A DNA stretch of 64,000 bases from Tieghemostelium lacteum. Lineage: Eukaryota > Evosea > Eumycetozoa > Dictyosteliales > Raperosteliaceae. The translations under genes and the position numbers were made by a program. Below are positions 2,084 through 18,762 of this stretch, in pieces. Positions within the stretch are counted from its first letter, which is position 1. Each line of letters opens with the position of its first letter. The stretch lies in NCBI GenBank assembly GCA_001606155.1, contig LODT01000001.1:806001-870000 (forward strand). The letters are read 5' to 3'. The notes under the pieces are model-generated. The model did not search any database and was not told the origin of the DNA. It saw only the letters and a list, made by a program, of their open reading frames with translations.

Positions 2084-5000
2084 TTAATTAAAGTCATTGA
2101 GATCCATGATACCATATTGTAAAAAGTCATTCTTTAAATTTTGGACTAATTTGATGAAAATATCTCTTTTGGCTTGTTGAGGTATGATAGTTTCCCATGA
2201 GTTGCAATTTAGGAGGAAAAAGAATTCAGTGAGGTCTTCTCTAGCGAGTATTGTTTTGAAATCATCTTTTGATTTGTAGTCCATCTTGGTGCTATCAATC
2301 CAAGCTAAAACACCATTATCAAAGAGTGTTTGAAGTGATTCTTTGGATTTAATAGTACTTGATCCTTGGATAGATGGTGGTGTGTTAAGCAATGGTGATG
2401 ATGTTGTGATTGTTTGAATTGGAGATGATGTAAGTGTTGGTGGTTGTTGTATTGGTTGGATTACTGGTGTCATTTCAATGTCATTGACAACTGTATTGAC
2501 TTGTACAGATTCAGAGACAAAGGAGTCGTTAAGTATATTTCCAATGAGTGTCTCTCTTCTCAAGATTACCAATGTGGAATTGGTCTCGAGGAATCTTTTA
2601 TCTTGTTCAGCCAATATAATATTACTATTTGAACAACGAACATGTTGATTGTCTTTCTTGATCTGAATAGAGTGTTCAGTACCTTCCAAACCTTCAATAC
2701 ACATGACGGAATGTACAACATAATTGTTCTTAATACCCTTAAGTTCAGTTGGTAGATTGATATTTTCGTTCAACTCAATGGCATTGTAGTTGATTTGACC
2801 TGCTTGATTGTGTCTGTATAATGGGATAAAGAGATACTGAGGAGCTTCTAAGATTTCAAATTGTACCGCATGTTCACATCTCTTTGGAAGAGTTTGTGAA
2901 AGATTTCTATAGAGAATATCTTGAATTGATTTTGGACCGCTGTGAGTTTGGTATCCGTACAATTGAATGACACAATTCATTTCATCGTGAGTGACTTTAC
3001 ATGTTTTACAAATGGATCTGACTGACCAGGTAAAGTAGTTACTAATCTTTGGATCAATACGTGAGAGAATGGAGAGGAATACCATAAGAGTAGTAGCTGG
3101 ATCAGAGTGTTGGAATGGAGGTGAATCCAATTCAAATTGTTGATCTAATTTCTCAATATCAATTGGAGTGGCAATGTTAATATTCTGAGCTCTAGTCTTG
3201 AATCTTGCAAATAAATATTGGAGACGGTCATGTACATGTAATTTCTTTTTAGAAATGAGATTAGTGAATTCTGGGATATAACGAATCCAATTGTAGATAC
3301 AGTGTCTAAAGTTATTTGGTTTTTCAATTGGTTTGATTGGTCTAAGACAGATACCAGATTCACCAATAGAACTGCTAATGTTAGTTTCATTGTTACCCAA
3401 TAACACCTCTTCTTGGTCTTCGTCATCTTCATAGTAACCAGATTCATTATTAAGATCATCTTCATTTTCTTTGAATACAAATACCTTATCTTCGTCATCT
3501 TCCAAATAGGTGTCTTTAACATCAATTTCGGAATCTACAACATTGTTATTGTTGTTGTTGTTGTTGTTGAGTTGACTTGTCAATTTAGAATCCAAAGACA
3601 ATGGTTCCATTGTGATATCATTTTGCTCGGAAATGTCTGGCATAACTTCATCTTTCTTATCAGCATTGGCAGAAGTTAGAGATGCAGAAGTTGGAGGTTG
3701 ATCAAATGCAGTAGAGAATGGTTCGACATATGGTTCAACTTTTTCGACATCTTCAAATTTCAAGAGCAGGGTAGAAAGCACCTCGTGAATAGTTCTCAAG
3801 AAGATTGGATAGGCATTGATAGACATCAATTTATCAGTCATTCTATCTGATTGTAACTCTGGATATGGTGATTTAATTCCACCAGAGACCTCTGGAAGTT
3901 TCTCAGAGAGCAAACAATTGGCATTGGATTTAATCATTTGAATGGTTTCATTAGAGAACAAGTGTTGTAAGAGAGCTTTAAGATAATCAATGATTGCTTT
4001 GATATTGTCTAGATTGGCAAAGGATATCAAACGAGATTTTACCTCTTTAAAGAATTCAATGTATTTCTGGTTATTAAGAGAGAATGAGAATTCAGGGAAC
4101 ATTGAGCTGTACAAGTAACCACAACCCAAGTATTCTTCAATAACTCTATCAATAACAACACAAATGGAACTAACAGAGAACTCTTTGAAACTGTTGAGGA
4201 TCTCCAATGGTAATGAGGTAGCACCTGTAAATTGAACTATAGTTTCTTTTGGATTAATTTCATCCTTTTCAGTTCTCAACAATTTCAAAATACTCTTAGA
4301 CAAGTATCTACAGAGATCATCAAGGTGTTGGTGATTCTTACAGTTGGAAATGAACTTGTTCATTTGAATAGGATCTACTCTCTGGCTGTATGCTTGTCTG
4401 TCAATAGATTCCAAAAGCGAACGAATTTCCTTGATGGATTGTGGAACCAATTTAGAAGTCAATGGATCATCCTTCTTCTTCTTTTGATGACCCTCCAAGA
4501 TGGTATTTCCAAGATTAAAGGACTTCTTGAATGGGAAAGTACCTTTGTAGGATTGCAATTGTGCACCAGATGATTTACCAGCAAGGAAAGATGAAATGAC
4601 TTTAGTCTGAATGTGTAACCAATCTGGATGGAATTGTTCTCTGTCAAAGGATTGGTAGTAAGAGATATTCTTGTAAATGTATTTTTGATAGAACTCTGGA
4701 GTGAAATCACTACCCAACAGCATGTAATTGTCACCATATTCAATAGGTACATCAGAGATATCATGTTCACGTAATTTACTCTGGAAACCTTCGATAATAG
4801 TTCTAAAGTATTCAGGCAATTCCAGATTTTCAACTAACAATACACATTGGTTTTGAGTGGATTCTAACCAAGAATCAATCAAATTGATAATCAGACCGTT
4901 ACCACCCATCTCTGCTGTATTTGGTAACAAATAAGATAGAGCAGTTTCATCATTGATTGGATAGACAACCTTTTCATTTTCAGCTCTGGCTCTGCAACCA

Positions 5001-8000
5001 CCTTCCATAGTCTGTAGATGTTTGCTAATCTTGTCCCAGGCAATGAGTAATCTCTCCCAAGCGTGTTTAAGAGTGGCACATGATTCAACAGATTCATATT
5101 CATTGTCAATGAGATACTTGACAGCTTCTTTAAAGTTGAAATCTACATTTTCATATGGCAAACGATCAGAGAAGTGTTTGTAGAAAACTCTGAGGAAGTT
5201 TAATAAATCAGGGAAGTATTTAGAGATACAAATCTTCTCAATTTTGTGAGAGAAGAAGTTAAGAATACCCAATTTATCACCTTGGTTCTTTGAGAGAAGA
5301 TCATTGATATATTCATAGTTGAAGATGGATGATGAATAAGATCTGGTACAATCTTCACGAATCTTGAGAATCTTTGCTAGATATGCAGATTGTTGTTCAA
5401 TGATTTCATTGAGTTTGGCCTTGAGTTTTGGATAATTGGTTTGTAGACCACCAATCAAAGGTACCAAATACTGTTTCTCATAGGCTACAACCTCTGGAAG
5501 GTTATCAAAGGTAGATCTCATGTGTGGACTATCAACTTGATAGGATTCTTTCCATAGAGCATAGACATACTCTGAGAGGAAATGACCTGGTTCAATGTGG
5601 AGATTGATATTCTCTTGATTGATTCTGACTTCATTGATGGCAGTAATACCTCTTTCATAGACATAGTCAATCAACTTGGTATGACGTTTGTCTTTAAGTT
5701 GAGTACAGAAATGCAAGTGACTACTAAACAAACTATTACAGAGATCTGGTGTGATACTGACAGTGTAGGCAAATATAGACCATGAAGTTGAATTTACTAT
5801 ATACTTCTTCAAAACATTAGAACCCATAGTGGAAGTCATATCACCAGCATTGGCATCATAATAGATCATACCACAATCTCTGAAACGGTTACCAACATCA
5901 CAAGCAATAAAGTGTTGGCCTGCTACATTCAATGGATTTCTAGTGAGATTGTACAAGTAACATTTGTTATTGCAACCAATAGAGGCAGCGACAAAGTTGA
6001 TAATCAACTGAGCAATAATCTTAGTTTCTGATAATTTGTTTTCAGATTTCTTCAAAATGTCATCAAACTGAACACCCTCGGTAAATTGTGAGAACAGAAT
6101 CTTTTCATAGAATTTGGCATATGGATTCAATTCAAAGTGATCACAAATCTGTTGAGATTTCATAATGAATTGGTAAGCTTCCAATGGTTGATTACCTATA
6201 TAATCTTGATAGAGACACAACATGAGTGACATTCTAAAGAGACCTCTTAATTCCATTGAGTTTTTACTCTCGTTCATGAATGGTGCAATATCTGGTTTAG
6301 GTGAACGTGTAATAGCCTCACGAATACGTCTAAAGAATACACCATGTGGATTATCATGTTGGAACATGAATGGCATCAAACAACTATCAGCAATAGTTAC
6401 ATTACTATCAACAAACAATTCAGTCAGACCAAATTCCTCAAGGAAGTGTTTGTCCTTTAAGATATCAAAGAGTGCCTTTTCACTGCTAATCTTATTCAAG
6501 AAAAGTACTTGATTCTTCTTGTTTTGGTATTCTACTTGTTTAGATTGTTGTTGATCTTTACCTGTTACAAGGATCTCCTTGAGCATTGTAATATAGTTCT
6601 TATTAGATCTGACACTGTCCAATGTCTTGTTGACATCAGATGAGATGTTTTCACAAAATTGTTGGATGAGATAGTTTTCCAAAGAGACAATAGTGATTCT
6701 AGAGTGAAGATTTGCTTGATGCTTGTAGGCTCTCAATTCATTGTTACGTAGATTGACAACATCATTAATCATCAATTTCTGGTTTCTATACAATTCAATG
6801 TTGACATAGAATAATGTGTTAGCCAATCGGGAGACTTTAATTTGAATCTGTACACCAATGAATTTCTCAACGATTTCAGAGGGTTTAATTTCAGTTGGAC
6901 TGTAGAATTCAGTGACTTTCTCTTGTTGGAATATTTCATTAGAGAATTCACGGAGTTTACCCTTAATAGTGTCATTACTGTTGAGATAGGTCAAGATGAT
7001 ATGAGAGAACCAACCAGTTGGAATCTGTGGAAGTTTTGGATAGGATCCATTACAGATTCTCAAGAAATCCCTAATGTTCTCATCAGTCTTGTAGGAAATG
7101 TGTTCGATAATCTCAAGCATGCAATCAAGAGACAATGCAAGTTGAGGTTTACCAAGATCTTTACTCAAGTACTGATTGATGGAGAGCAAATGTTCAAAGA
7201 CTGGGATGAGTTTGAAACTAGCCAAATGACTCATACTCTTGTTCTTAATCAATGATTGTACAATGAAATGGTAGTCTTGTTTCTGGAAACTAATAGAAGC
7301 ATTCAAGAAGATTTGGTATAGTGACAATACCAAAATGATTGTATCTTTCATCTCTGGAGCAGTTGACATTATAAAGTCAATTGGTGACCGATTGAGCATC
7401 TCTCTAAATGCAGTAGTCCAGTTAATCAGTTGATCAATGAGTTCATCATTCTCTGGGTTCAAATGAGAGTCTTTTCCAGTAATTTGATAGCTATCAAATA
7501 TTTTTTCAATCTGACTCTTGAGTAATTGGTATGAGAATGTAATGATATTTTGCTTCAATTTGGATATATCCAAATTTGATTTCTTTGGATCATCAATGAC
7601 ATTGGTAATACTTTGTTCAATTAGAGTAGTGAATTGACTGAGAATCTTGACCTTATCAATATTAGAGAGATTTAATATTGGATAGATAATAGAACGAATA
7701 AAGTAAATGGTATTAGCATGGTAGTAACTGGAGGTGTAGTATTGAAGAATGGTATTCTCTTTGATTGGTGACAATTTCTTTAACAAAACTGTAAAGAATC
7801 TAGAGAGTTCAGTTTCAACCTTGATTGTTCTAATTAGATAATCAATAGCAAAGGCATCTTCCAAAGATGGATTTTCATTAATGAAATCTACCAATTCATA
7901 AATTGGGTTACTCTTAATGTAGGATTGGAACATCTTGAATACATTCAATGGTGAACGATTCTTTACACTGTTTACTACATGGCTAAAGTAGTTACCCAAA

Positions 8001-11000
8001 GTGGTACTGATGGCATCGTACAGAGGGAAGGTAGATTTAGTCTTTGGATCCAATGGTTTAATCAAACTAATTGGTTCAAATCTCTGTTCAATTCTGTTGG
8101 AGATCTTTGGTAATTTAGTACTCTTGATAAAGAGTGTAACTAATAACTGTTCACGTGAATTTGGTTGAATCTTAAGTACATCACCATAGGATTGGTAATT
8201 TACCAAAAGTTTAAAGACCTGACTGATAACAGGGAAGAAATAACTAGTCAATGAATCTTTAATAGAGTCGATAAATGAACGAACTAATTTACCAGCATGA
8301 ATTAACTGAGAGATATTGTTAACGATACCAGAGAGAATATTCTTACTATTCCAGTTACGAACAAACTGATCAATAATCTGGTAGTACCATACTTCATTGT
8401 TCTTAAACAGTTGAGTCATACCTTCTTCTCTCTTCTTTTTGTCACGATAGAACTGTTGTTCTGCCATTGAGAGTTGTGGAGCACCTCTAACCATTGGAAT
8501 GATATATGGATTCATATCAAAACATATAGTATGTAAATGTTCTTTAAACATATCTTGGAATGTCTTGTAGATGGTTTCTTGTGGAATATGATTCTTTAAT
8601 CCAAAAGCTTGTGCAATCCAAGATCTGATATCAGAGTCAATAAGAGTGCTCTCTGATTTCTCAGTTAAAGTACTATCAGTATTCAAACCCAAAGAATCAA
8701 TGTACAAGAATTCAGTGTTATTCAAAAAGATGGAATTGATCTTGCTTTGGTTGTAAATTGAATACTCTGGTGGGAAATGACAAATCAAAACCAATAGTTT
8801 ACCTGGATGATTGTTAAACAACTCTAAGACATAACTAATCTGGTTCTGATTGCTAATAGTCATATCAGCAAAGATCAAACAGATGGTTTGTGTCTTTGAT
8901 TCTTTGAATTGTTCAATTTCAGCTCTACATTTAATAGAGGATTCAATGGCATGCAATTGAAGGAGTTTGAGATTCTCTTTAGTGAGTTTTGGATTGTTAT
9001 GTGACAATGTCTTGTAGAATGTTCCTACATTCTCAACATCCTTCAAACGATGGAAAGTCAGAGATGTTCTGGTATAGAGTACCCATTTGTTGGTAGTATT
9101 TTGTTGAGTGGTTGCTGATTCTGGTTTTTGTTGCAATTGAATAAATTCATTAAAGATGTGGTTCAAGAATCTCAAACAATTGAAATGCTCTTGACGAAGG
9201 ATATACTCTCTTGTATATTCTTTAGGTAAAGATTTACATTTAAAGATAGACTCTGGTCTGGCAATCTGAAGAATCTTCCAATTGAATAGACGATACTCAT
9301 TGGATTCAACAGTGTTTTGATCATCTGGGATATCAGAACTTATATGGTATGGTGATATCTGAGTACCAGTTTCCAAGTTCAATTTAGCCTTCTTTGCAAT
9401 TAAATATACCAATGATGATATAGTCTCTTTACTGTATCCAAAGAGTAAACTATTGTTGGTAACTTTTCCGTGGAATTCTTCAACAAAGTGTTTGGCACTG
9501 GTGAGTAGTGACTCAAAGAATGCAACCTTGTCATGTAGAACCTTGGATCTTAGACAGTAATCCAAAAGATGGTCGACAGACAAATAGTATTTCTCAAATC
9601 TATTGAGCCATGGTAAATGGGTAGTCTTCATTCTACTCAATGGTAAATGTACGATAATCTTGAAGTTTGGATGTACAGTACAAAATACAGAGTGAGTACC
9701 AAAACTGACATTGGCAATGAAATGTGCATTACCTTCAATATCATGAATCAATTGGAAGTATCTATTAAATACATCATAGAAACATGCATCAATAGCTTGG
9801 GTGTTAACAAGTACTACAGTACCACCAGTTGACATTTCATTCTTAATCTGACTGACGACAGCCACTAGAGATTCAGTGCTGTTATCTTTATCAAAACCAC
9901 CAACTCTGATGACTTTATGTTGAATACCAAGTTCTCTGAGAATCATCAATGAGGTTTCATTCTCAGTTGGATCAATTAACATCATGTAACGGAATGCACA
10001 GGTATTTGGATTCTGATCAACTTCAAGAGTCTCTTCAAGAGATTCACGAATTCTGTCAATGGTATTATCAATTCTTGGTGGCATTTGAAGATTCAAGTTC
10101 TTAAAGAACACAGCAACCAATTGATTAAAGTCATTATATGGAATACCATTGAAATGTCTCTCCAGTGAATTCAATAAACCTAAAGGTGAGATACAATTTT
10201 CCTTTTGATAAGATCTCTGTAAATGTCTTAAAAAGAATACAAAATCTCTTTGATGGAATAGATTGAGCTTAGTAGATCTTGAGAAGTGATTGACCATTTT
10301 GTAACTCTTTGATAATGCATCACAAATGGCATATTCATTGGAATTGAGTTGATGTTTGTAACCAAATAGACAACCAATAACCAAAGACTTTTCATCTTCG
10401 TCACTGATAGTTGGTGGATGAACCAGTACAAGCATACGATTGGTTTTGGCAGCATCTAATATCTTGTTGGATAAAATGATAATAGCGATATCTTCATGTG
10501 ATTGTGATTCACCAATCTTTTGTGAGAGTTTATCCAAGTAGTCATGCATGATTTTCATTGGAGAGTCTTTTTCATCGACGAGACCAGCCTCATCAAGATG
10601 AATGACACAACGAACTTTGTTGTCTTTAGTTGAACCCAAGACTTTTTGTCTTTCAATAGCACGATTCATAATAGATTGAATTTCAATATCAGTAGTGTGA
10701 CTGGTACATTGGTAACGATATGGGATGGCATTTGGCATCTCAGAATAGAAACTATTCTTATCGGTCTTGTTAGCATTAAGGTTCTCTAAGACAATAGAGA
10801 ATGAAAGAGTCTTACTGCAACCTGGTGGACCAATGATACATAATGGGATATTGCAATTAATTGAAATGACAGTAAAGAAGAGATTCAATTGTAGAGAATC
10901 AGTTCTGGCAATACCTTCTGGGAGTTTAGTCTTCTCTGCGACTGCACTGTAGATGAGTTTGAAAATCTCCATAAATGATTTACGATATAGTAGACGGTCA

Positions 11001-14000
11001 GCACCAACTTTACGAATGTAATTGTCAAAGTTAACAATCATTTCGTCTCTCTTTGGACCTTCAGAAAGTCTGTAGACATAGGTCATTGCACAGGTACAGA
11101 TAGTAGCTAACCAATGTATACTGACATAGTCATCGTTATCCAATTGGAAGAAAGCAGTTAAAAAGATCATTGTGGCAACTTTGGATTTAAAGAATTTATA
11201 TAAATCAATAGCTCTAGTGAGATCTCTAATGGATACATGAGTACGTGACTGATGTGCAGCTCTTAGTGATCTCTGTCCTATAAGAATCATCTGTAAGAGA
11301 TCCTCTTTACATTGTGCCAATGTCTTGCTATCGGTAATATCAGCAATGATACTCTTGAAATCAAAGAGAGTTCTCAAGAAGGAAACTTCAGATTCTTCAT
11401 TGAATTGACCATAGTCAAAGTAGAGAAGTTTCATTGAAGGTGGAGTCTGTCTGACTACAAATGAAAGATCGTTTGTAAAAGTCTGTTGCTCACCAGTGTA
11501 ATTGATGGTATCTTGAGAAACTTGTAGAGGGTTCATAGCACCAATCCAGAATATGTTACTTGGTAATGGGCCCTCACCATCAATGGTACCATCAATGAAA
11601 ATCTCATTGATCAAAGCCAATGTGTCATCTGGAGAGGTATTAAACTCATCAATAAACACAACCATCTTCAAACCTTTATCAATAGTCAACAATTCCTTAC
11701 TGTCTTGAATGACCTTATTGGTGAATGACTTGAACTCTTTGGAATTCAATTTCTTGTGCATAATGATACGGTGGAAGAGATTCTTGAATTTTACAGAACA
11801 AATCTCAGCAACCATCTTTTGTAATTGCTCGATAGTGTTAATTGACTTTTGTTCTTTACTAGTGAGAATAGTATTCAAATCAGATTCCTTACTAATGTAA
11901 ATCAATTTGTTATTTACAAGAATCTTTCTCATGCAATCCTCAAGTTCAGAGAGTAAATTGAATTTGTACTTTTGCAAGAATTCCAAATGTTCTGGAGACT
12001 TTTGAACTATACCACTGTTTTGGTTATTGTTGTTCTGAACTGGTGGATTGACAAGTGATTGACCTGGTTTTTGAGTCTCTGTGAAAGGTGGTTGATAACC
12101 ATACAATTGGAAGAGTGCTTCATTAATATGGTCAGCAGTACAATCACCTGGTAGACGGTCATAATGCTTATCACCAATCTTGATTGGCTTCAATTTGAAT
12201 CCAGTGTTTCTAGAGATGATTGAACTTACTTTTTCTTTGAGTTCATAAATGATATCAGGGATAGCATTATTCTGAGCATTGATGAGTAGGGAATAGAAAA
12301 TCAAGATAAATGTCTTACCAACACCAGTGTCACCAGTGAGAATAAGTGAACGTTGATTTTTAATCTTGTTATTCAAAATGATCAATCTCTGACTGAGTTC
12401 AGGTGTCAATACATAACCATACTGATTAGACAAATCACCAACAATATAAGTTCTAGTGGTGATACCAAATGAATTGGAAATTACCAAACGGAATTCATGT
12501 GGTTCCTTCAAAGCTTTATCAATAGTATACAAAGAGTCTCTCTTAGAAGCTGGAATGATTTGACCCTTGTTATTAGAGAAATCAATGAAATCCAAAATAG
12601 CCTTCTTGTTATCTTTATCAGCTAGAATACTTCTGGCAGTAACCAATGGTGGGTTCTTCCAAATCTCATTGGCAGAGCTAAAGTTTGGATCAGACAACTG
12701 AATAGATTCCAATAACAAAATGTAATAAAGTTCCTCCAGAGACAACAGTTTATCAACTGTTTTAGTATTGTTATGACGATCGTAGAACTTTACAACAATA
12801 CAGTATTCATGATAGTCATCGAGGAAAACTAAACGTTCGTGTAAGAGGGAGAAGAAGTTCTTTCTGGCAATACAGTTTTGTGGTTCAGAGAGGAATGCAA
12901 CTTTTTGTTTGGTGTATTGTGCAAGTTTGACCTCAATGATGTTTCTTACGTATTCAAGATAACGTTTCAATGTGATGTTACTACCTTGGTCCAGAGTTGG
13001 TGTATTATAGAAATTACAATCAATATAGGAGAAACATTTCTTTTCGATATTGGATATCTCCCATTCGAGTTTAGTATGATCGTGGTGTTCAGCTAAATGT
13101 ACAATCAATGGAATAGACTGTTCTACATATTTTGGATAGGTTAATCCTGGTACTTCTTCAAGAGGTGACCCAATTTCAACATAAACTGATAACTGAAGAT
13201 TCTCTGAAATATTCAAAATCTGACCTTTAGCACCAAAAATGAAACCAAAACCAATGAGTGGGTAAAAGAAGTGATTGAGAACTTCAAAATCACACAATGG
13301 AGAGAATATAAAATGAATACTAACTTCCTTGTCTTTTTCTTTTGAGAATTTGGAAATCTTTTCAATAAGACTGTTTAGATCAAATTCCAAACGAATGAGT
13401 ACATTTATACAGATCTTCTCTTTACAAAGACTCTTGATATAGTGAGTCTTACCAGAACCAGAAGGACCCTTGACAATAGCAAGTGACTTGATACCATTTT
13501 TGGTTTTATTGTGTACCCATTGATCTTTGAAATTCTTCCATTCGGTATTGAATTGTTGCTGATAAGTTGGCAAGAATGAGAAAATCTCAGAGTTGGATGT
13601 AGACTTTTCAGTACTGACAAAATAGACTTTAGCAAGATTCTTAATGGATCCGTTATTGTAATGGTCACTAACCCAAGAAAGAAGTTTTTCTTTTTCTCTT
13701 GGAATACCAACTAAAAAGAATGTATTGTCTGGGAACTTCTCAACAATTTGAGTGAAATAGTCAATGTCAACATGGAAACTATGGGCAAAGAACAATTGGT
13801 ATGGGTTAGGCAGACAAGAGTCATTTAACTGCATTAGAGTGTTAAAGAGATTAGACTTATTCTCCAATTGAAGATACATGAAAATGGGTTCAGTTTCAGA
13901 ACGAATAGGAGGTTGATCATCGTCATCAATCATTAGAGCCTCGAGAAGTTTTGGAATGAACATATTCAAAAACAGTGGTACTTCAACATTTCCTTGATTG

Positions 14001-17000
14001 GCAAAGAAATCTTGTTGATTCTCTGTGATTACCTGTGAGATGATTTCACTAGTTGATGTTGGAATACAGTATTTAAGGTATGGGAACATGATTCTCGTGA
14101 GTTCCACCAGAGATCCGGTATTAGCTTTAAAGAACTCTTTTAGAGAACTATGTAAACTTGAAATACCAGAAGCACGAAGTAACAGTAAATGTCTTGGAAG
14201 TGATATAACATTGCTATTCCACTCTTTAATCTCTTCTTTGAAACGAGTTTCCATATTATCGAGATTGGTCATTTCAATCTGACTGATATTCAGAATAATA
14301 GTACCATTGACATAGTCTGGATGATAGACTCTGTCCAATTCCAAATGAAGTGCATGTATTCTCTGCAAGAGTTTAAAGAGATAATCAAAGTTCTTAATCT
14401 GTTGAGCAATCTCTGGTGTAATTTCCTTGGCAGAGAAGATATTCAAACCTCTAACATAATCCTCTACCTTGTCCTGGTTGAGTTGTAATTTTGAATCCTT
14501 AATCTCAACTAACCAACCATCAGAACCAGATTCACATTTTGTAGAATTACTAATAAATTTGGAACTTGACAAAATCAAAGAAGCAATCTGCAAAGAGGAT
14601 TGACTGTTATAAGCACCACCACCAGTCTTATAAAGAGCTTTAATCTGTGATAAATTTGCATTTACAAAATGCAACATATTGAAAGCCTGGGTGGTATTCT
14701 GTTGATTGAGCAATGTGGAAATCTTGAAACAAAAGTCTTTAAATGTGAAAATTTTAGCACCTTGAACTCTCTTTTGTTCCAAATCCATCTTGATCTGAAT
14801 CAACTCCACCAAAAGATTTTTAGTGTAGATGGTGTTATCCAATAAAGATGAATTCTTTTGATCACCAATTAAATTCGATGTGATAATGTGACCTGTAGAA
14901 TCAAAACTCTTTAGATCTTTAAATGATGAAAAGAACTCCATCAAATCAAATGTTACATGTTGGAAAAAGGCAAAGTGATGGTGATTCAAGTTACCCAAAA
15001 TCTCAGCCAATTCATTAATAGTTACAGTGGCCTCTGCAATAGACTTGACACGAACACTATCGAGTCTCTGTTGGATAGCTTGTTTGGCTTTATCCAAATC
15101 AGAGATTTGAATGTAGTTTTGAACTCTACTAAAGAAATCATAAATCTGGGAGACATTAGTTCGGACACCAAACAAAAATGTAGCCTTGTCAATAAATGTC
15201 TTGATTGTTGTGACAGTATTGTTATCAAATGCCTTGTTAGGGTAGAAATAAGAGAAGATACTGTACAACTCCTTTTGATAACTGACTTCTTGAACTTCAT
15301 CAGCAATATTCTGGAAGATCTCATTCAATGGCATAGAGGTATCTCTATCAACCAACTGCTTCATAAACTTTTGAGCCTCTTCACATACTTTATCTAGAGT
15401 ATTATAGTCCTTCTGTGAGAAGAATTTGAAAATGGCCTCAAAGAAGGAAGATTTCTGATAAATGTGGAAAAAGATGAGGAAATTGAGATTCTGTTCGGAA
15501 CGAAGTGTCTGTCCATTAGGTCCTTTAGCAGTGAGAACTCTCTTTCTCTGAACTGCAATCTTTTCGATAATTTGTTGTTGATTTGGATGATTTTCATCAA
15601 TGGAGAATCCAAACTTCTCATTGAGCCACTCAGAGATCTTAATGAGATTGGTCAACTCTGATAACTCTTGGAAATACTTCTTCTCGAGTTCTTCAATAGT
15701 CTCGTGCTCAAATTTACCAAATGAAATGAGAATCTTTGATAGATTGACATATTCCTCTTTCTTTACTGGATCATAGTTGGATTTAATTTGAACACAACGT
15801 TGGTTGAGATCTACACTAAATACTGAAATGTGTTGATGATATTCATACAATTGTGGTGACCAATGTGGGTAATGGTTACCAGTGAGAGTTGACAAAACAC
15901 TTAATTTGGTGATGGCTTCATTGTAACCACGGTTACCAGCCAACACAAACTGTTGACGTGCTTGTAACATCTCCTTGAAAAACAAGATAAAAGGCAGACC
16001 AACCGGGATATTGTCATTATAGTTGTTTAGGAATCTCTGAAATTGTTCGAGTAACAATGTCTGGTTAAGTGCTTTACCTTCATTGTTGATGAACAACTTC
16101 ACAACATGACTGACAAAGTTAAAGTAGTTTTGGTAGTTTTTCTCAGAGAGTATAGTGTTCTTGGGACTATTGTTAAGGAAGTCAACCTCACCTTGAGCGA
16201 TATCCGAGAGACGAGATAGTGAATTAAATGTCTTGTCAATCATTGGAATGTTGATATTTGGTAAATACAAATACATGGAAGCTGCAACAGAAAGTGGGAT
16301 AAATTTCAAGAGTTTTCCTTGAACTTGTTGAATGTGTTCCTCTTTGGATTTGAAGAGTTCAATGAAGGCTTTGGTTGATGGGAATACTTCGTTCTCAGGA
16401 GAGAAGATATATTGAATCAGTGACTTGAAGAATTGGAACAAAATAGGACTGCTACAAATCAATACAAAAAAGTATTGATACTCATCTCGGTTAAATAGAT
16501 AGAAGTTGAAGACCAACTTGAGTTCCTGTAGCATTGCACCCTCAATATGTTGAGTGACAATCTCTTGTTCAAAAGTTCTCTTATCAGCCAACAGCAGACG
16601 AATAAAAGCATGATAGCAAATAATTCTACCTTGTTCATTCATTACAATCGATTGTAAAGCTCTAATGGCAATTTTAGAACGAATGAGGGCAATATCTACA
16701 TTCTCGACTTTGGCCATATCATTATTGATCTCAGTTACCAAATCATAGTAACACTCTCTGTTGATATCTACATCCTGAATGATCTTTACCATTAATTCCA
16801 AACCCTTGATAGCTTGTTTGTTCTTTGGAACTGGTAATCCCAACTGGTATCTATTAGCAAATAATTGCAAGAGAGCTCTCTTGTAACGAAGTTTCTCAGT
16901 TGCTGATTTGGCAATCTCTTCTATAGCCCTTATACCGTGACTAGGCAAATTCTGGAGATTATCAAACTCGTTCATGGCATCATCAAAAAACTTTTTATAT

Positions 17001-18762
17001 CTCTTATCAATTTGGTTTTCAAAATTGAGATAATCGATAAATGAGATACCAACAAACAATTTCATTTCAAACTTCATCTCTTTCCATCTATTACTTAAAA
17101 ATACAAATATTATTTGACACAATGATAGATCAATATGTTTAAATATGACCTGAAGCATTTTCAATACAGTTTCTGGATTCTTTTTAGATAATGCTGATTT
17201 ATGATCACTTTTTAATAGTAAAATAAAATAGAATAATTAGTACAAATGTATTTAATATTGGAAGAATTTGAGTATAAAACATACTTATCAAGTTTCATAA
17301 AAAGAAAAGTTTGAGGAATGACATAATTGTTATGGTAACTAACCATTCCAATTAGACTTTCAAATAATTCCAGATCTTCAACTGAAGACTTTCTCTCATG
17401 GTTGTGTCTGATCACATCCATGGCACTACTTGGAGAGATTTCTTGTTGGAATAGTTTGGTGATAAATTCTGAAAATAAACCACCACCAACACCAGATGTA
17501 GAGACTTTTGATGAACTGGTTCTAAGTTGTGGTCCACCGCTATTATTGTTGTTGTTGTTATCAACTTCAGGTCTATCACGGTCACTAGATGTTCTAATAC
17601 TGCCTTTACCTTCACTAGATGTTCTAATACTTCCTTTGGCTTCAGCAGATGTTCTAATACCACCACCAGATGTAGTAGTAGTAGTTGTTGTAGTGGTAGT
17701 AGTTGTATTATCATTATTACCACCATCATCTTTTTTATTCTTTTCAACATCACCTTGAATTTCGTCTAGGTTTTGTTGGAGTTGTTGATTATTGTTATTT
17801 ACAGTGAAATTTTGATTATTTTCTGTTGAGGAGGTTGTAGTGGTAGTAGTTGTTGTAGTTGGGGTGGCTGTTAGACCATCACCAGCAGTAACACGATTTC
17901 TACTATCAATATCGGGTTCTCCTTGTTCGTTAGCTTCAACAGATTCATTAGCCATTCTATTATTGTTGTTGTTGTTATTGATGGCCATTAAGATATCAGA
18001 ACTTGGAATATCTTGGTGAGCTTCTTTAAATTTTTTATGAATATGTTCATCACGATCATCTTCACCTAGAGCACCACCTGCACGAGCAGTTGAATCATCA
18101 GAGTGTGCTGACCGTTGTTGTTGTTGTTGTTGTTCACCCATAGCCATCATCATTGGTACAACAGAATGTGCGTGATCTCTTGGAATAAATCCACTATCAG
18201 CACCACCTTCAGCACCTGGTCCAAAGCCTTGTTGTGGGGGTTGTGGAGGTCCAACGACCACACCTTGTCCACCAACTTGGAAAGGTACAAACATATTTTG
18301 TTCTCCACGGTGATGTAAATGTGGCATGTGACCTAATATACCGACACGATGGTGATGACCAGTAGGTACAGGTGGTGAAATGGGACCTTCTGGAAGTGGT
18401 TCTTCTTGTGGATCTTGACTTGGTGGTGGTGGAATTCCTTGTCCATCCTCTCCTTCATCATGATGAGGTGACTGTCTTTGTTGTTGTGGTTGATGTTGTG
18501 CTGTTGGAGTAGTATTTGGCTCACCAGCTGTCATCAGTGTCTCATCACCGCCAGTAGGATTCAAAGTTCCCAATAACTTCATAAACTCTTGATATTGTTC
18601 CTGTGGAGATAAGTTACTGTGTTGCATTCTAAAATAGGTGAAAAATGGTTGGTGTTGCAATGGAATCTCTGGAAAACTATTGCCATCAGCTCCGACGGGA
18701 GGTGTATTCTGACCACCATTGTTATTATTGCTATTATTGTTATTATTATTGTTATTAAACAT
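2084..18762 (-). CDS. RNF213/mysterin-family giant AAA+ protein with C-terminal USP-like domain, no RING seen
   Basis: Two exons, 18762-17285 and 17207-2084, are joined by a 77-bp intron (GTATGT donor, AAG acceptor), giving about 5533 residues. The large exon has no credible ATG near its start (first codon of its open frame is TTG), so the disordered exon-1 product (poly-N, poly-T, poly-Q, His/Pro-rich) is its N-terminus. P-loops: GPSGSGKT near residue 1740 with no acidic Walker B, GDTGVGKT near 2118 with FIDEFN (D2346), and GPPGCSKT near 2619 with IHLDEAGL (D2698). The LDEAGL-type sequence, the AMNP motif, SIRDLTRAIDLYKFF, and LPWLNRFEKYYL are RNF213-family hallmarks. A C-x2-G-N...D-C-G cluster (C4262, C4271) may be a degenerate RZ finger. 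No C-x2-C...C-x-H-x2-C RING was found. Residues about 5110-5360 match the USP layout: HCIYN (C5129), CKTC (C5226, C5229), EAPQYLFIPLYRH, and a late His (H5338). In animals RNF213 is a ubiquitin ligase acting at lipid droplets and on intracellular bacteria; here activity is inferred only. Confidence 0.88.
17570..17670 (-). repeat. Tandem 10-residue repeat, IRTSxExKGS type, in exon 1 of the RNF213-like gene
   Basis: Three near-identical units of about 30 bp encode IRTSAEAKGS, IRTSSEGKGS and IRTSSDRDRP, with a looser LRTSSSKVS unit further on. Each unit presents an R-T-S-S site that basophilic kinases could use; that role is inference. The DNA identity between units points to recent slippage or duplication. 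Confidence 0.7.

Follow-up and report, generated by a model that had tools for sequence, protein, structure and literature searches.

A giant RNF213-related AAA protein of Tieghemostelium lacteum with a C-terminal domain that is most likely a pseudo-USP

The window that we analysed, a stretch of 64,000 nucleotides from contig LODT01000001.1 of Tieghemostelium lacteum, holds on its minus strand a gene for a giant RNF213-related protein, here called gene A, whose features are collected in Table 1 together with its paralogs. An earlier note, made from the letters of this DNA alone, had described a USP-like deubiquitinase domain at the C-terminus of the protein. Its residue numbers equal the exon-2 numbers used here plus 483, and the merged numbering obtained through the predicted intron reproduces the positions that it gave (C5129, C5226 and H5338).

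Table 1. Positions of gene A and its features in the window, and of the paralogs on contig C23.
Feature	Position	Strand	Residues	Remarks
Main ORF, gene A (RNF213-related)	2084..17236	minus	5050 aa	
Gene A exon 2	start ~17207	minus		start by predicted exon model
Inferred upstream exon, gene A	17285..18762	minus	~493 aa	low complexity; sequence inspection and splice prediction
Predicted intron, gene A				77-base, GT-AG; connects upstream exon with main ORF; merged protein 5533 aa
Walker A GDTGVGKT	12311..12334	minus	1635-1642	same in all five AAA-core genes
RNF213-type AAA core	9392..11671	minus	1856-2615	phmmer against RNF213 chains in the PDB
Walker A GPPGCSKT	10808..10831	minus	2136-2143	same in all five AAA-core genes
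Stretch like first half of RZ finger, HFIACDVGNRFRDCGM	5867..5914	minus	3775-3790	CxxC half absent
Acidic linker, gene A	3362..3604	minus	4545-4625	poorly conserved (17% A-B, 22% A-C identity)
USP-like domain, gene A	2552..3361	minus	4626-4895	Pfam UCH, hhalign with controls, Foldseek
Asn4642 (merged 5125)	3311..3313	minus		catalytic Cys column; N/N/N/G/G in A-E
Cys4646 (merged 5129)	3299..3301	minus		proposed catalytic Cys of the earlier note, a helical turn too late; D and E have Ser
First zinc knuckle CxxC	2999..3010	minus	C4743, C4746	5/5 domain copies
Second zinc knuckle C-x-H	2870..2878	minus	C4787, H4789	5/5 domain copies
Glu4854 (merged 5337)	2675..2677	minus		catalytic His column; E/L/L/V/V in A-E
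His4855 (merged 5338)	2672..2674	minus		proposed catalytic His of the earlier note; Tyr column of GHY; H/F/F/Y/Y in A-E
C-terminal unit, gene A	2102..2341	minus	~80 aa	no Pfam match
Paralog B	C23:1728238-1743375 (open frame)			AAA core and USP-like domain
Paralog C	C23:800156-816551 (open frame)			AAA core and USP-like domain
Paralog D	C23:824907-832851			fragment without AAA core; USP-like domain present
Paralog E	C23:836740-853341 (open frame)			AAA core and USP-like domain
Paralog F	C23:855269-869430 (open frame)			AAA core and C-terminal repeats; no USP-like domain

A search of the assembly to which the window belongs (23.3 Mb in 43 contigs) recovered at least six related genes, A to F. 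Because only the best candidates were scored, these paralog counts are lower bounds. The AAA core is present in at least five of the genes (A, B, C, E and F) and the USP-like domain in five (A to E), and paralog F can serve as a natural deletion control for the domain. C, D, E and F are clustered in ~70 kb. The reading frame of the USP-like domain is open in all five copies, with the domain of C, D and E split by a predicted intron. Between D and E, the first exon part differs by 9 nonsynonymous changes (553 sites) and 5 synonymous ones (146 sites), too few to decide whether the domain is a relic. No close relatives were found among prokaryote and viral contigs, as would be expected of a gene from a eukaryote.

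The AAA core of gene A matched RNF213 chains in the PDB (9jwg, 9jw1, 8s24 and 9g08) with E values of 4.4e-40 to 5.2e-40 in phmmer searches, and the mysterin/RNF213-type AAA motor proposed in the earlier note is thus borne out, at about 4e-40 against solved RNF213 chains. Walker A sites are located at residues 1257, 1635 and 2136 and Walker B sites at 1859 and 2211, and both kinds of motif are present in all five AAA-core genes. As judged by these matches, the product of gene A is a giant RNF213-related AAA protein, sharing with mammalian RNF213 the AAA core (by sequence), the Walker A and B motifs, the giant size and a long post-AAA module.

Mammalian RNF213 is described as having a RING and an RZ finger (excerpts of PMC7311170 and PMC11549300), and in the human RZ finger the metal ligands are C4505, H4509, C4525 and C4528 and the nucleophile is C4516 (excerpt of PMC11549300). 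Gene A appears to differ from mammalian RNF213 in both respects. With an E threshold of 0.1, Pfam scans that covered the exon-2 frame of A and the C-terminal 2254 and 1542 residues of B and C, respectively, found no RING, and the paralog alignment contained no conserved RING-like Cys/His cluster. When that alignment was matched by eye to the RZ residues given in the excerpt of PMC11549300, a stretch resembling the first half of the finger could be seen (ACDVGHMFRDCGM in C, ACDVGNRFRDCGM in A), and the second half was missing from the aligned genes; the finger looks broken. The Pfam RZ family (PF20173) had two matches in the genome, both in other genes and none in the RZ-like stretch of gene A. 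One of the two genes has a helicase end and zinc fingers, and we take it to be ZNFX1-like. By these motif and profile comparisons, neither mammalian RNF213 ligase centre is recognisable in working form in gene A. A profile of the post-AAA module, built from five copies, found no sequence in the PDB, and a stretch there scored -1.2 bits against RNF213. Since the sequence search gave no homology between the post-AAA module and the RNF213 E3 module, we infer, rather than observe, that a ligase was lost.

The C-terminal region of gene A contains all of the USP-order motifs that the earlier note had quoted, in the order that it gave, on the minus strand within 2537-3397. Scanned in isolation, the domain of gene A had Pfam UCH as its sole match at E <= 10 (E 2.5e-4; 21.2 bits, compared with a curated cut-off of 23.9), and UCH also matched paralog C exon 1 (E 6.5e-4, 19.8 bits) and paralog B (E 0.14, 12.2 bits), each below the same cut-off. 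The isolated-domain scan comprised five pieces, from A, B, C (exons 1 and 2) and E. UCH exceeded its cut-off in none of the scanned copies; paralog E had zero Pfam matches at E <= 10, and the exon 2 piece of C matched only IL1 (E 0.048), which we regarded as chance. When longer domain-bearing pieces of A, B and C were scanned, UCH was absent at E <= 0.1, and PDB sequence searches using the domain as query returned no match.

Profile-profile comparison with USPs of the same genome gave an end-to-end alignment. The five copies scored 36.6 (local) and 33.3 (global) against ten same-genome USPs in hhalign, with modest probabilities of 41% and 75%, respectively, and in either mode the domain score was matched by none of 30 slices taken from elsewhere in these proteins and by none of 100 column shuffles. 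With a smaller set, three copies in four rows aligned to eight same-genome USPs, the E value was 1.4e-6 and the probability 90.5% over 141 columns. An ordinary HMM built from the ten USPs (hmmsearch) was non-discriminating, with 5 of 168 slices beating the gene A domain slice (6.1 bits). We regard the best of these, at 14.2 bits, as a chance match, since the roughly corresponding regions of A and B reach 2.7 and 1.9. Top-scoring control slices from the HMM and hhalign tests also pointed to a hidden second USP-like domain at residues ~3190-3470, a candidate that we rejected, as it had no Pfam match in A and its alignment, besides being partial, was strong in just one paralog. The best single hhalign template among the ten USPs was U33 (L033, C23:16846-17907), with a local score of 23.7 compared with 19.1 for the next, single-template scores being within or near the control range. 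U33 is itself without the catalytic Cys and His, and presumably is the USP39/Sad1 ortholog.

We ran the AlphaFold and Foldseek check against USP structures that had been suggested for this domain. Two AlphaFold models, each of modest confidence, were built from input alignments that contained no canonical USP: model 1 from 4 alignment rows (pLDDT 54.1, pTM 0.59) and model 2 from 8 (pLDDT 63.8, pTM 0.71). The order of helices and strands was that of USPs in both. USP entries, identified by title, made up 50 of the best 50 of 225 Foldseek matches to the PDB for model 1 (best E 1.7e-6) and 48 of the best 50 of 468 for model 2 (best E 2.8e-9); the remaining two matches listed for model 2 are spliceosome chains, which we take to be USP39. 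TM-scores by query length among the listed PDB matches were 0.31-0.51 for model 1 and 0.49-0.61 for model 2. Against viral proteins the best Foldseek E value was 1.2e-9, and named ubiquitin hydrolases topped the list. A USP-like fold for residues 4626-4895 is well supported by the sub-cut-off Pfam UCH matches, the hhalign controls and these predicted structures together, and in this respect the earlier proposal stands.

The catalytic residues are a different matter. The earlier note had placed the catalytic Cys in FRHCIYN (C5129, here Cys4646) and a late catalytic His at H5338 (His4855), and had read the domain as a deubiquitinase with both residues kept, joined to an AAA motor. In hhalign, Cys4646 instead aligns with the Ser column of CYMNS, and the CFMNSVLQ motif of a same-genome USP aligns on NFRHCIYN in both modes, which puts the catalytic column on Asn4642, four residues earlier. 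Among 120 resampled profile alignments, the Cys column fell on Asn4642 in 82 and never on Cys4646; it met other residues in 18 and had no partner in 20. The His column fell on Glu4854 in 103 and on His4855 in 9, with no partner in 8. MAFFT agreed with the shifted His register in all three modes and with the shifted Cys register in one, the other two opening long gaps there. USP helix 1 begins at the catalytic Cys; in both AlphaFold models the first helix begins one residue after Asn4642.

A gap-free profile score from which the catalytic column was omitted favoured the shifted registers over those of the earlier note in all five copies, by 12-30 bits for the Cys box and 3-13 bits for the His box. 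When every offset was allowed in the gap-free scan, whose scores were mostly negative, the shifted register of the Cys box came out top in two of five copies (A and B), with rank 2 in D and E and rank 4 in C. That of the His box was top in none of five: its rank was 2 in B, 3 in C and 4 in D, and in A and E it fell beyond the best four. Overall, the shifted register of the catalytic columns appears well favoured, though not unanimously so. C5129 and H5338 as a catalytic pair are rejected by hhalign, by the resampled alignments and by the gap-free scores, and the paralogs have Ser at the first position in two cases and Phe or Tyr at the second in four. By these computations, the canonical catalytic Cys and His are missing from all five domain copies, where the corresponding columns hold N or G and E, L or V. 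The C-terminal domain of gene A is, most likely, a pseudo-USP, as far as alignments and models can indicate.

The zinc site has fared differently from the catalytic site. The first knuckle, which the earlier note had recognised in WSVRSICKTC (C5226), is a CxxC in all five copies. A USP zinc ribbon usually has CxxC twice, and the second knuckle had been noted as having only one Cys. That single Cys is confirmed, and its partner is a His: C4787 is paired with H4789 two residues on in all five copies, which gives a complete zinc site. Within the USP-like domain, identity is 34% between A and B and 42% between A and C, compared with 17% and 22% in the preceding acidic linker, and this higher identity suggests that the domain is maintained. 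It seems, from these comparisons, that the fold is kept up while the catalytic chemistry is not.

These data are best explained, with a probability that we put at roughly 0.78, by an RNF213-type AAA protein in which no working ligase centre is recognisable and the C-terminal USP is catalytically dead and probably acts as a ubiquitin reader or docking module. The ATPase core would still assemble or remodel on a target, and the pseudo-USP, located behind an acidic arm, would bind but not cleave its ligand, whether ubiquitin, a ubiquitin-like protein or a partner. ATP-driven assembly or remodelling as in RNF213 is likely because the ATPase core is intact by motif, and because the cutting residues are apparently missing, the domain is likelier to hold ubiquitin than to remove it. 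We infer a working ATPase, ubiquitin as the ligand, a ligase ancestor and involvement in defence or protein handling.

Alternatively, the domain could be a decaying, functionless USP relic in an expanding gene family, as the loss of the catalytic residues, the absence of the domain from copy F and the reduction of copy D to a fragment without an AAA core might suggest. We consider this unlikely, since the domain frame is open in five copies, the four zinc ligands are kept in every one of them and the domain is more conserved than the linker that precedes it. Less probable still is an active deubiquitinase joined to an RNF213 motor, acting through C5129 and H5338 or, as with USP52, through other residues. 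Gene A does have a Cys and a His close to the expected places, the His was aligned in 9 of the 120 resampled alignments, USP52 is reported to be active without the standard triad, and activity is reported for some USPs believed dead (excerpt of PMC10919355). Against this, the Cys was aligned in 0 of 120, the gap-free score went against the earlier registers in 5/5 copies, and the Cys is absent from D and E and the His from B to E. That an unrelated alpha-beta domain was misread as a USP pattern is very improbable: Pfam never exceeded its cut-off, PDB sequence searches gave no match and the HMM of the genome's own USPs was non-discriminating, yet USPs filled 50/50 and 48/50 of the listed Foldseek matches and the profile-profile score lay above 130/130 controls in each of two modes.

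A catalytically dead USP on an RNF213-type ATPase would have partial precedents. In USP39/Sad1 and USP52/PAN2, too, a USP fold that lacks the standard Cys and His forms part of a larger machine (excerpt of PMC10919355); in gene A, in contrast, this fold is linked to an RNF213-type ATPase and has a CCCH zinc site. Canonical USPs (peptidase family C19) share with the gene A domain the motif order, the zinc ribbon and the predicted fold, and differ from it in the residues of the catalytic Cys and His columns. The acidic linker, USP-like domain and C-terminal repeats are not described for mouse RNF213 in the excerpt of PMC7311170, and no RNF213-USP fusion was found among the listed titles and abstract openings of openly licensed PubMed Central literature on RNF213/mysterin and pseudo-deubiquitinases. 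Both halves, the RNF213-type ATPase and the USP fold, are already known, and their union is apparently unreported within those titles and abstract openings.

More tentatively, and with somewhat less than an even chance of being right in full, these genes may form an entire RNF213-type ATPase subfamily of a single amoebal lineage, in which the two ligase centres were lost and a pseudo-USP was acquired. A protein that attaches ubiquitin would thereby have become an ATP-driven one that reads it, or that reads a ubiquitin-like protein, and the subfamily would have expanded partly in tandem, as defence genes do. RNF213, a disease gene in humans, encodes an antimicrobial ligase, and the role of its ATPase is still being clarified. 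In a natural relative that has kept the motor, apparently lacks the ligase centres and has acquired a ubiquitin-protease fold, motor function would be separated from ubiquitin transfer. The domain is also a warning against assigning catalytic residues by the order of motifs alone: an error of one helical turn was enough to give a likely pseudoenzyme the look of an enzyme.

Several smaller features of the family were also apparent. A USP gene is located at C23:793370-796639, ~3.5 kb upstream of paralog C and the RNF213-like tandem cluster; it was considered as a candidate donor of the USP-like domain and was not the top-scoring template. The C-terminal unit, ~80-90 residues in length, is single in A and present in up to three copies in paralogs; it had no match beyond these genes in the genome search and none in Pfam. 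Paralog E apparently contains two tandem post-AAA modules, and its extra ~1000 residues repeat family motifs.
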